A stretch of DNA of 64,000 nucleotides from positions 124,001-188,000 of the forward strand of contig VGVH01000001.1 in assembly GCA_016874095.1 (NCBI GenBank), written 5' to 3'. Below the pieces are notes generated by a model that did no database searches, had not been told where the DNA came from, and was given only the letters and a program-made list of their open reading frames with translations. Within the stretch, counting starts at the first letter, position 1. Each line of letters begins with the position of its first letter. This document shows positions 49,689-52,907 of the stretch, in pieces. This stretch comes from Gammaproteobacteria bacterium (GTDB lineage Bacteria; Pseudomonadota; Gammaproteobacteria; Steroidobacterales; GCA-2729495). The translations under genes and the position numbers were made by a program.

Positions 49689-51026
49689 ATGTCGATGACC
49701 CCGCGCGAGATCGTCCAGGAACTGGACAAGCACATCGTCGGCCAGGATGCCGCGAAACGGGCGGTGGCGATTGCGCTGCGCAACCGCTGGCGGCGCATGC
49801 AGGTCGCCGAGCCCCTGCGCGGCGAGATCACGCCCAAGAACATCCTCATGATCGGACCGACCGGTGTCGGCAAAACGGAGATTGCCCGGCGCCTCGCCAA
49901 GCTGGCGAATGCGCCGTTCCTCAAGGTCGAGGCCACCAAGTTCACGGAGGTCGGCTACGTCGGGCGCGATGTCGACAGCATCGTCCGCGACCTGATGGAG
50001 GCGGCGGTAAAGCTCGCGCGGGAGACGGAAACGACCCGGGTGAAGCACCGGGCAGAGGACGCCGCTGAGGAACGGATACTCGACGCGCTGCTGCCGCCGC
50101 CGGCGAGCGGCTTCGGCTTCAGCGGCCAGCCGGCACAGGAACCGCGCGACGGCGACACGCGACAGAAATTCCGCAAGATGCTCCGCGAAGGCAGGCTCGA
50201 CGAGAAGGAGATCGAGATCGAAGTGCGCGCCATGACGCTGGGCGTCGAGATCATGGCGCCGCCCGGCATGGAGGAAATGACCAGCCAGCTGCAGAGCCTG
50301 TTCCAGAACATGGGGAACCAGCGGAAGAAAACCCGCAAGGTGAAAGTCTCCGAAGCGAAGAAGCTGCTCCTCGAGGAGGAGGCGGCACGCCTCATCAACG
50401 ACGACGAGCTGAAGCAGGCGGCGCTCGCCAACGTCGAGCAGAACGGCATCGTGTTCATCGACGAGATCGACAAGGTTGCCCGCCGCAGCGAGACAGTGGG
50501 TGCCGACGTTTCGCGCGAGGGCGTTCAGCGTGACCTGCTGCCGCTGGTCGAGGGCTGCACGGTCACGACGAAATACGGTTCCGTCCGCACCGATCACATC
50601 CTGTTCATCGCCTCCGGCGCGTTCCACGCAGCGAAGCCGTCGGACCTCATTCCGGAGTTGCAGGGACGTTTTCCGATCCGGGTCGAGCTCGACTCGCTGA
50701 CAGCCGCCGATTTCGAGCGCATCCTCACCGAACCGGATGGCTCGCTGTGCACGCAGTACCGCGCCCTGCTCGCAACGGAAAACGTGCAGCTGTCCTTCGA
50801 ACCGTCCGGGGTGCGCCGGCTCGCCGAAATCGCTCACCAGGCCAACCAGCAGATGGAAAACATCGGCGCGCGCCGGCTTCACACCGTGCTCGAGCGGCTG
50901 CTGGAGGCCATGTCCTTCGAGGCCGCCGACCGCGGCGGCCAGGTCATCGCGGTGGACGGGGCCTACGTGGACCAGCACCTGGCTGCACTCGCGAAGAACG
51001 AGGACCTTTCGCGCTACATCCTCTGA
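49689..51026 (+). CDS. hslU: HslU (ClpY) ATPase subunit
   Basis: A 445-residue AAA+ unfoldase. Walker A is GPTGVGKTE (about residue 58), then the pore loop EVGYVGRDV, an intermediate domain (about 110-240), Walker [11 protein letters not shown] and a C-terminal tail ending DLSRYIL, which docks into HslV. The ATG at 49689 gives the normal length. Confidence 0.96.
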
Positions 51027-51070
51027 CCGGTGGGCGGGCGGCGCTGCTCTGGCGCCGGTGCGGGATCGGG

Positions 51071-51151
51071 ATCAGACTGAAGAGCGCGGGCGGTCCTGGT
51101 GAGGAGTTAAAAAACCGACGAGCCAGGACCGCCCGCGCCCTTCAGTCTGAT
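51071..51151. repeat. Long hairpin 1 (shared loop motif)
   Basis: Arms 51071-51099 and 51123-51151 (29 bases) are complementary except for one A/C pair at 51083. The loop is TGAGGAGTTAAAAAACCGAC plus GAG. Hairpin 2 has an unrelated stem but nearly the same loop. It lies 45 bases after hslU and 28 bases before the UbiD-like gene. No T-run follows, so it is not a standard terminator. Confidence 0.8.
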
Positions 51152-51178
51152 CGTCAGCGCCCGAACCGGAGTACCACC

Positions 51179-52831
51179 ATGACCTACGATCAAAGTGAAT
51201 CGAAGGAAATTCCAGCCATTTCGCGGCGCGGGTTCATCGTCACGACTGCGGCGGGTGTCGCGGCGGCGACGGCGGGCTGTGCGGCAGGCACCGGCAACGC
51301 CCGATCCGAGGCGGCGGCGACGACGGCGACGCTGGGCCCCTACGACGATTTTCGCGGCGCGATCGCGGCGTTCGAGGCGCGCGGCCGGGTGGTGCGCATT
51401 GCCCGTGCCGACCAGGACGCGTTCGAGGCGAGCGCGCTGATGTATCGCCTCGTCGACCGCTACGGCGCCGAGGGTGCTCCGGTCGTGGTCTTCGAGGAAG
51501 TGAAGATCGAGGGTGAGTGGATCAAGGGCCCGGTCGTCGGCAATTTCATCGGGCACTGGGATGCGGAGGCACTTGTCTTCGGCGTCGAGCCCGATCCGGC
51601 CGGCGGCGCCGCGACGCTGCGCAAGGCGCGCGATCACCTCGTCGGGCTCGCGCAAGCCAACGGCGGCCGCTTCCCGGAGATTCCGCCGGTCGTGATCCCG
51701 AGGGAGAAGGCTCTCTGCAAGGAGGTCGTGCTCCAGGGCGACGCCATCGACATGACCCGCTTCGGGTTCCTGAAGGTAAACCCGGGCGATGGCGGTCGCT
51801 ACGTCAACACCGCCTCGGTGTTCACGGTCGACCCAACCGCCGGCATCAACTTCGGCACCTATCGCTGCCAGCTGAAAGGACCGCGCAAGATCGCGGTCAG
51901 CCCGGGCGAAGGCCAGACGGGATGGATCATGCTCGACGCGGCGCGCAAGCGCGGCGAGAAGGTGGTGAAGGTCTCCCTGGTGCTGGGCCAGGATCCGATC
52001 GTCTATCTGGTGAGCGGCTCACGCGTCGCCAACCGCACCGGGAATCGTCCGGTCGACGAACTCGCCGTCGCCGGCGGATTGCGCGGCCGCGCCGTGGAAG
52101 TGGTGAAGAGCGACACCAACGACTTCCTGGTGCCGGCCCACGCCGAGATGATCATCGAAGGCGAGATCCCGCTGGATGACACGGAACCGGAGGGCCCCTA
52201 CGGCGAAGGCCTGGGCTACCAGGGCGGCGGCGAAACCGCGTGGTACATGAACGTCACCACTGTCACGCATCGGCGCAACCCGTGGATGCACAACAGCTTC
52301 ACCGGAATCGACCGCGGCCCGGTTTCGGCAGCCGGCCTCGCCTCCTCGCTGCTGTTCACGCAGAAGTTCGCGCCAGAGGTGGTCGACATGCACTACCGGA
52401 GCAAGGCGAACAACATCATGTACGTCAGCATCCGCAAGACGGCTGCGGGCCAGGCCATGGCCATAGGTGAGCGGCTCGGCAAGTTCAACCCGGTCGCCAA
52501 GGTCGTGATCATGCTCGATGACGACGTCAACCTCATGGACATGTCGCAGGTGATGTTCGCCATCAGCTCGCGCTGGCAGCCCCACCCGGCCGCGAAGATC
52601 TTCGAGCAGCTTCCAGGCCTGCCGCTCGACCCCAGCCAGCCGAACCGCAACAAGACCAGCAAGATCATCATCGATGCCACCCGCCAGTGGCCCGGCGAAG
52701 GCGGCCCGGAGTCGTTCCCGCGCACGAATCGCTCGATCCTGATCGAGAAGATGCCAAACGCATTCACGCAGGTCGACGAAAAGTGGGGCGCGATCATTTC
52801 CGGCTGGGAGGCCGGCGAGCTACGCGGCTGA
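51179..52831 (+). CDS. UbiD-family decarboxylase with twin-arginine, lipoprotein-like signal
   Basis: A 550-residue protein. Residues about 15-36 are SRRGFIVTTAAGVAAATAGC: a twin-arginine motif, a hydrophobic stretch and a lipobox-like cysteine. The rest is a full UbiD-type enzyme: INFGTYRCQLKGPRKIAV (the region holding the prenyl-FMN-contacting arginine), PEGPYGEGLGYQGGGE (with the conserved glutamate) and a C-terminal metal/subunit region. UbiD enzymes decarboxylate or carboxylate aromatic and unsaturated acids using prenylated FMN from UbiX. They are normally cytosolic, so an export signal is unexpected. It is not the housekeeping ubiD, whose protein has no such leader. Hairpins with a common loop flank it on both sides. 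Confidence 0.82.
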   Translation: MTYDQSESKEIPAISRRGFIVTTAAGVAAATAGCAAGTGNARSEAAATTATLGPYDDFRGAIAAFEARGRVVRIARADQDAFEASALMYRLVDRYGAEGAPVVVFEEVKIEGEWIKGPVVGNFIGHWDAEALVFGVEPDPAGGAATLRKARDHLVGLAQANGGRFPEIPPVVIPREKALCKEVVLQGDAIDMTRFGFLKVNPGDGGRYVNTASVFTVDPTAGINFGTYRCQLKGPRKIAVSPGEGQTGWIMLDAARKRGEKVVKVSLVLGQDPIVYLVSGSRVANRTGNRPVDELAVAGGLRGRAVEVVKSDTNDFLVPAHAEMIIEGEIPLDDTEPEGPYGEGLGYQGGGETAWYMNVTTVTHRRNPWMHNSFTGIDRGPVSAAGLASSLLFTQKFAPEVVDMHYRSKANNIMYVSIRKTAAGQAMAIGERLGKFNPVAKVVIMLDDDVNLMDMSQVMFAISSRWQPHPAAKIFEQLPGLPLDPSQPNRNKTSKIIIDATRQWPGEGGPESFPRTNRSILIEKMPNAFTQVDEKWGAIISGWEAGELRG

Positions 52832-52832
52832 C

Positions 52833-52907
52833 GGCTCAGGCGTGCCGGCAGCACCAGGCGAGGAGTGCAAAATCCGACGAGCCGGGTGCTGCCGGCACGC
52901 CTGAGCC
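52833..52907. repeat. Long hairpin 2 (shared loop motif)
   Basis: Perfect 23-base arms 52833-52855 and 52885-52907 begin two bases after the UbiD-like stop. The loop contains GAGGAGTGCAAAATCCGACG followed by AGCC, with a further GGC/GCC pair inside. Compare hairpin 1: the stems are unrelated, while the loops agree at about 18 of 22 positions. No T-run follows. Confidence 0.82.

Follow-up and report, generated by a model that had tools for sequence, protein, structure and literature searches.

The UbiD-type gene and its surroundings

The window analysed here is a stretch of 64,000 nucleotides (contig C1, positions 124001-188000) from a genome of 2.80 Mb in 75 contigs (G000). At 51179..52831 on the + strand (stop codon included) it carries a gene of a UbiD subfamily, encoding a protein of 550 amino acids and lying between two genes that we take to be hslU and ubiE; ubiJ and ubiB are presumably also among the neighbours. 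To judge from the sequence, the GGAG at 51168..51171 (+), 7 nt before the ATG, is a possible ribosome-binding site. All three domains of the family score above their Pfam cut-offs: UbiD_N at residues 62-139 (51362..51595, +; 31.2 bits, cut-off 24.3), the UbiD core at residues 175-376 (51701..52306, +; 168.3 bits, cut-off 23.3) and UbiD_C at residues 394-500 (52358..52678, +; 73.1 bits, cut-off 24.2). This confirms both the complete UbiD-like core claimed in an earlier note on this DNA and the coordinates of the reading frame. The NCBIfam models TIGR00148 (UbiD family decarboxylase; 226.7 bits, cut-off 244.85) and NF041204 (VdcC; 203.8 bits, cut-off 650) matched below their cut-offs, and an AlphaFold2 model made from two alignment rows was unusable (mean pLDDT of 32.4).

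We compared this locus with its counterparts in related genomes. At 25 of 30 hslU loci, our own included in the 30, ubiE follows within 1.5 kb downstream of hslU with no subfamily UbiD in between, whereas one such UbiD occupies this position in the window and two do so in G023, and in G016 a UbiD follows hslU. Since most loci have no UbiD before ubiE, the gene is, on this comparison of sequences, an addition at the hslU-ubiE site, found in no fewer than two genera, and does not belong to an ancestral ubi operon. The interval in G023 (L061, 187-15176) contains other genes besides its two subfamily UbiDs and may be a site of repeated insertion.

The gene is flanked by two hairpins, which are linked to it by position only. 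The one before it (51070..51152, no strand assigned) has arms of 30 bases and the loop TGAGGAGTTAAAAAACCGACGAG; the one after it (52833..52907, no strand assigned) has arms of 27 bases and the same loop motif on a different stem. These are the longest arms in the window, the four other hairpins found having arms of 16-17 bases. A third long hairpin, with arms of 30 bases, lies at about 245.7 kb of contig C1 (L011:1468-1554), inside a reading frame that we take to resemble dprA. The three stems are unrelated and share the loop motif GAGGAGTnnnAAnnCCGACGAG, of which the genome holds three perfect copies. Allowing two mismatches, a search of 39 other genomes returned 10 matches, the same number as the reversed control. 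Rfam gave 14 matches in the window, all below the gathering scores and all to microRNA families except isrG, a small RNA.

A Tat-type signal with a lipobox-like cysteine

The N-terminus of the protein reads MTYDQSESKEIPAISRRGFIVTTAAGVAAATAGC, with a twin arginine at residues 16-17 (51224..51229, +) and a cysteine at residue 34 (51278..51280, +). From this sequence and the subfamily comparison we assign residues 1-34 (51179..51280, +) to a Tat-type signal with SRRGFI at 15-20 and TAGC at 31-34. An S/T-R-R-x-F/L-hydrophobic motif near the N-terminus and a moderately hydrophobic stretch after it are both present, as in Tat-exported cofactor enzymes and Tat lipoproteins, where S-R-R-x-F-I and such a stretch are likewise followed by a cysteine. 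The sequence SRRGFIVTTAAGVAAATAGC, which the earlier note read as an apparent Tat lipoprotein signal, is present; its span is residues 15-34 and not 15-36. The bacterial lipobox consensus is L-[ASTVI]-[GAS]-C; T31-A32-G33-C34 fits it at three of four positions, with Thr where Leu is usual.

The same note had held that a start of translation downstream of the signal would count against its reading. Near the start, the in-frame ATG, GTG and TTG codons are a GTG at 50747, within the upstream gene, the ATG at 51179 and a GTG at 51389. The last is codon 71, already within UbiD_N, and the scan found no further in-frame codon of these three kinds between M1 and that codon. A start between signal and UbiD_N was accordingly rejected, and the signal belongs to the protein unless the GTG inside UbiD_N is used.

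The signal is conserved where the other parts of the N-terminus are little so. In the relative L024 (72% identical), S15, R16, R17 and C34 are all retained. The five Tat-bearing paralogues of the same genome are 22-30% identical to the window protein over residues 1-54, as against 48-56% over the core. For the subfamily as a whole, we read 130 of 147 matches; of the 17 that were not fetched, 11 cover only part of the query. These 130 members score at least 630 bits against a profile of the eight proteins from our own genome; six UbiDs of other kinds on the same stretches of DNA reach 190 at most. A twin arginine (in every signal-bearing member, by definition of the test) and a hydrophobic stretch with an upstream start codon were found in 100 of the 130, a count made by picking start codons with the motif in view. 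Among these 100 signals the residue before the twin arginine is S in 62, D in 21, T in 12, N in three and G in two. Counted from the first arginine, the third residue is L in 49, F in 34, V in eight, M in five, I in three and A in one, and the fourth is L in 65, I in 18, M in nine and V in eight. A lipobox-like cysteine occurs in 32 of the 100, including all five rows of the branch to which the window protein belongs.

When start codons were chosen by one neutral rule, which clips N-termini, a strict Tat test was passed by 58 of the 134 UbiD-cluster genes and by 21 of the 1245 remaining genes of the regions retrieved. For comparison with UbiDs from outside the family, we took the 29 best of those retrieved from the phylum sample, which, like the class sample, was scored on the best three candidates per genome; none passed the motif test. 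On these two comparisons a chance twin arginine was rejected.

On the tree, which came from a quick search, has SH-aLRT values as its sole support and shows long branches to the outgroup, 27 of the 30 signal-less rows form one branch (support 100) amid signal-bearing rows. The remaining three are L131, L099 and L141; the last is cut by a contig end and could not have shown a signal, but the 100/30 split places it among the signal-less rows. With L141 and L156 left out, at least three changes of signal state are needed. The genome itself has one TatC match (E 4.1e-70). Taken together, the comparison makes export by Tat well supported for this predicted signal, and lipid anchoring of the window protein is probable. 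Of the claim that a folded, cofactor-loaded prFMN enzyme takes this route, the part on export is supported; the loaded, active enzyme is still our inference, and the loop of the metal-binding histidine is changed, as described below.

Expansion of the subfamily in one bacterial family

The earlier note had proposed to look for ubiX and further UbiDs in this genome, and we found both. PF01977 matches at 11 places, eight of which belong to one subfamily and three to other UbiD types. The seven subfamily paralogues are 40-52% identical to the window protein. Six of the eight members carry the twin-arginine signal (the window protein, two on C9 and one each on C19, C16 and C1 at 118.9 kb); those on C47 and C23 are without it. 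One of the three places of other types, on C27 (L020, 1-800), holds a UbiD fragment that runs across several frames, from a paralogue in decay or from an error of assembly. Two frames match PF02441: one of 418 amino acids, which is probably, in our estimate, CoaBC, and one of 215 amino acids on C8, the single UbiX-type gene, 2.2 kb from the UbiD match on that contig.

At E ≤ 1e-60 the 147 subfamily matches fall in 36 of 60 related genomes. Of these genomes, 34 belong to the window's family, for which 37 genomes (our own included) were compared, and two are among the 23 that represent the remainder of the order. An even sample of the class showed the subfamily in two of 369 genomes, both of the window's family, and the phylum sample in one of 398, our own, with the best three candidates per genome scored in each case. 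A contig scan returned a single relative, L024, from a MAG labelled 'uncultured Gammaproteobacteria bacterium'; we took it and G020:C66 as one record, counted once (as L059). In a plasmid collection 387 records matched, all below 60% identity and the 25 listed at 28-30%. As read from these matches, drawn from the phylum and the plasmid collection, the subfamily is a lineage-specific radiation of Tat-tagged UbiD proteins.

A UbiD match above 250 bits was seen in one of the 37 genomes of the family (G018), compared with 10 of the 23 other genomes of the order. This difference may mean that the window's family has lost the usual UbiD of the ubiquinone pathway.

Catalytic residues and the metal loop

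The alignment places N224 and R229 (N..G.YR; 51848..51865, +) at Fdc1 N168 and R173, and both residues are present in all 130 members. E338 and E343 (EGPYGE; 52190..52207, +) fall at Fdc1 E277 and E282 and are conserved in 124 and 130 of the 130, respectively, with Asn replacing Glu at the first position in six. The equivalences of R229, E338 and E343 were drawn through R168 of ShVdcC and the motif EGPFGE. According to the accessible part of one study, these positions form a Glu-Arg-Glu/Asp network in which acidic residues at Fdc1 277 and 282 are required for activity, Fdc1 E277Q is nearly inactive and R173 variants show a radical feature at 550 nm (PMC5818171). An absence of key prFMN residues, which would have spoken against the reading of the earlier note, was not seen for this network.

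The metal site is less simple. In UbiD enzymes an Asn, a His and a Glu ligate the Mn2+ that holds the phosphate of prFMN. We take these ligands to be Asn168, His191 and Glu233 in Fdc1, with N224 and E323 (52145..52147, +) as the counterparts of the first and the last; both are present in 130 of 130 members. In the window protein, Q246-T247 (51914..51919, +, by alignment) lie in the loop where other UbiDs carry the His that binds the metal. At the position of Q246, +22 from the Asn, VdcC and HmfF have His, whereas 125 of the 130 members have Gln and five have His. The next residue, +23, is Thr after Gln in 74 of the 100 rows with a signal; 24 of the 30 signal-less rows have His there. In 29 E. 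coli-type UbiDs of the phylum sample the His stands at +21, in a WL.HRGG loop. As the His of other UbiDs is found at either +22 or +21, the alignment of the loop is uncertain by one residue, and the His of the subfamily is either replaced by Gln or shifted. Presuming Gln at Fdc1 190, we see two predicted alternatives: a Gln has taken the place of the His ligand, or the Gln corresponds to the one at Fdc1 190 and most exported members have lost the His.

In the portions available of two studies, UbiD enzymes depend on Mn2+ to bind prFMN or to be active (PMC10865409, PMC7976604), and on this ground the altered loop counts against a simply functional site. For another member of the family, the available text of a further paper places Mn2+ and Na+ at the phosphate (PMC8988006). 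Asn or Gln contacts to the O1 position of prFMN are linked with oxygen tolerance in the accessible part of PMC8379154; speculatively, the conserved Gln could be of use in a periplasm that is oxic.

Through L425 of ShVdcC, position 483 corresponds to Fdc1 L439; it is Leu in 75, Thr in 30 and Pro in 12 of the 130 members. This variability suggests that the paralogues differ in their substrates.

Comparison with known UbiD enzymes

The best solved relative is VdcC of Sedimentibacter hydroxybenzoicus, a phenolic acid (vanillate) decarboxylase whose structure (PDB 7ae4) matches residues 55-511 at E 1.6e-43. It shares the Arg, both Glu and the Leu at the catalytic positions, but it has no signal in the matched chain start and carries His at +22 where the window protein has Gln. 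E. coli UbiD (PDB 5m1c, 2idb; E 3.6e-40 over residues 54-536), the enzyme of the ubiquinone pathway, has the same domains; it differs in the His of its WLSHRGG loop, and the signal is absent from all 29 such UbiDs of the phylum sample. Ferulic acid decarboxylase Fdc1 of Aspergillus niger (PDB 4za4; E 6.5e-26 over residues 162-491) has the same E-R-E network, although at low identity; it is a fungal enzyme of the cytosol and binds its metal through His191. Unlike the window protein, VdcC works with a further subunit, VdcD, according to the part of PMC8379154 at hand.

UbiD enzymes are, to our knowledge, regarded as cytosolic. We know of no UbiD working in the periplasm, and of no prFMN enzyme among the Tat passengers. 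A literature search for exported or expanded UbiDs found none, which is weak evidence, most subscription papers lying outside its coverage. In the accessible portions of PMC12323627 and PMC13406360, Tat proteins or periplasmic transporters are mentioned apart from UbiD, and in that of PMC8269228 the signal peptides belong to hydrolases.

Genes adjacent to subfamily members

We examined neighbourhoods within four genes for 129 of the 130 loci, with genes called by our own codon score instead of a gene finder and with orthologues not collapsed. The neighbours include a Rieske/VanA_C oxygenase (13 loci), a dienelactone-hydrolase-family protein (10), an alpha/beta hydrolase (10), a TonB receptor, a luciferase-like monooxygenase and an MFS transporter (nine each) and DUF1838 (seven). 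They indicate no single pathway. As raw locus counts, the Rieske/VanA_C, dienelactone-hydrolase-type and TonB neighbours would fit catabolism of aromatic or natural-product acids. At its 10 loci, all signal-bearing, the dienelactone-hydrolase-family gene is always directly upstream on the same strand, and the two genes are a possible operon; the pair is seen at L128, whose tree neighbours are L130, L139, L142 and L105. The alpha/beta hydrolase occurs only beside signal-less members. DUF1838, a family without known function, has 15 matches in our genome, is found in 41 of the 60 related genomes and in none of 14 control genomes, and is expanded in G000 and 36 further genomes of its family. With 15 matches in one genome, seven of 129 loci is about the expected background, and we draw no inference from it. 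Three DUF1838 members beside UbiDs (L103, L111 and L112) also start with a Tat-like signal.

Proposed function and alternatives

We consider it reasonably likely that the gene encodes an exported, probably lipid-anchored prFMN (de)carboxylase of the UbiD type, which would be loaded in the cytosol and exported folded. The protein would fold in the cytoplasm and take up prFMN made there by the single UbiX-type enzyme. The folded holo-enzyme would then leave through the Tat translocase, be cleaved before Cys34 and become anchored to lipid, facing the periplasm. Its substrates there may be carboxylic acids, aromatic or unsaturated, that enter through the outer membrane. The protein is one of eight diverged paralogues in this genome, six of them with a Tat signal, and their substrates probably differ. 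Tat carries folded, cofactor-loaded proteins, and a route of this kind fits a flavoenzyme whose cofactor comes from a cytosolic UbiX. Aromatic UbiDs are often hexameric, as stated in the available part of PMC8379154, and a hexamer may be too large for Tat unless it is assembled after export; dimers or assembly after export would resolve this difficulty.

The altered metal loop gives some weight to a different reading, namely that the exported protein keeps the UbiD fold and is no longer a prFMN decarboxylase, holding plain FMN, another metal or no cofactor and serving another chemistry or a binding role. The Asn at the Glu277 position in six members and the location of the sole UbiX-type gene beside another UbiD, on C8, point the same way. 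However, the equivalents of Arg173 and Glu282 in every member and of Glu277 in nearly all are more than the fold alone would need, and five members have His at the Gln position. We regard this reading as doubtful.

That the protein is instead a cytosolic UbiD enzyme whose N-terminus merely resembles a Tat signal is improbable. The studied UbiDs are regarded as cytosolic, and the signal-less clade, 27 of the 130 members, retains the catalytic residues. Against this, the motif persists in 100 diverged proteins whose N-termini are otherwise little conserved, a lipobox-like Cys is found in 32 of them, and few genes outside the UbiD cluster passed the strict Tat test.

A UbiD of the ubiquinone pathway beside ubiE, ubiJ and ubiB is very improbable: the position between hslU and ubiE and the scarcity of high-scoring UbiDs in the family would favour it, but adjacency to ubiE was rejected as a ground by the comparison of hslU-ubiE loci and by the score of 147.8 bits (cut-off 788) with PRK10922, the NCBIfam model of the 4-hydroxy-3-polyprenylbenzoate decarboxylase (ubiquinone UbiD), the relatives L059 and L060 have no ubiE match on the fetched stretch, and a periplasmic place would be unsuited to this pathway.

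For the exported prFMN (de)carboxylase that we favour, the features of the protein can be read as follows: the fold and the catalytic network speak for a UbiD, the predicted signal points to export, and the metal loop indicates a change of some kind. The broader proposition, that one bacterial family has expanded a set of periplasm-facing, often lipid-anchored UbiD (de)carboxylases with a modified cofactor-metal site and export of the folded holo-enzyme, seems to us evenly poised. In the accessible parts of two papers, prFMN is made in the cytosol and is sensitive to light and in many cases to oxygen (PMC5818171, PMC8379154). Export of a prFMN enzyme, if true, would therefore widen the reach of the cofactor and add a kind of Tat passenger. 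The subfamily is large, and its signal-less clade offers a natural control for export, cofactor loading and the metal site. The many tagged copies kept by the relatives suggest that UbiD chemistry also takes place outside the cytoplasm; if so, some bacteria would decarboxylate or carboxylate acids before taking them up.
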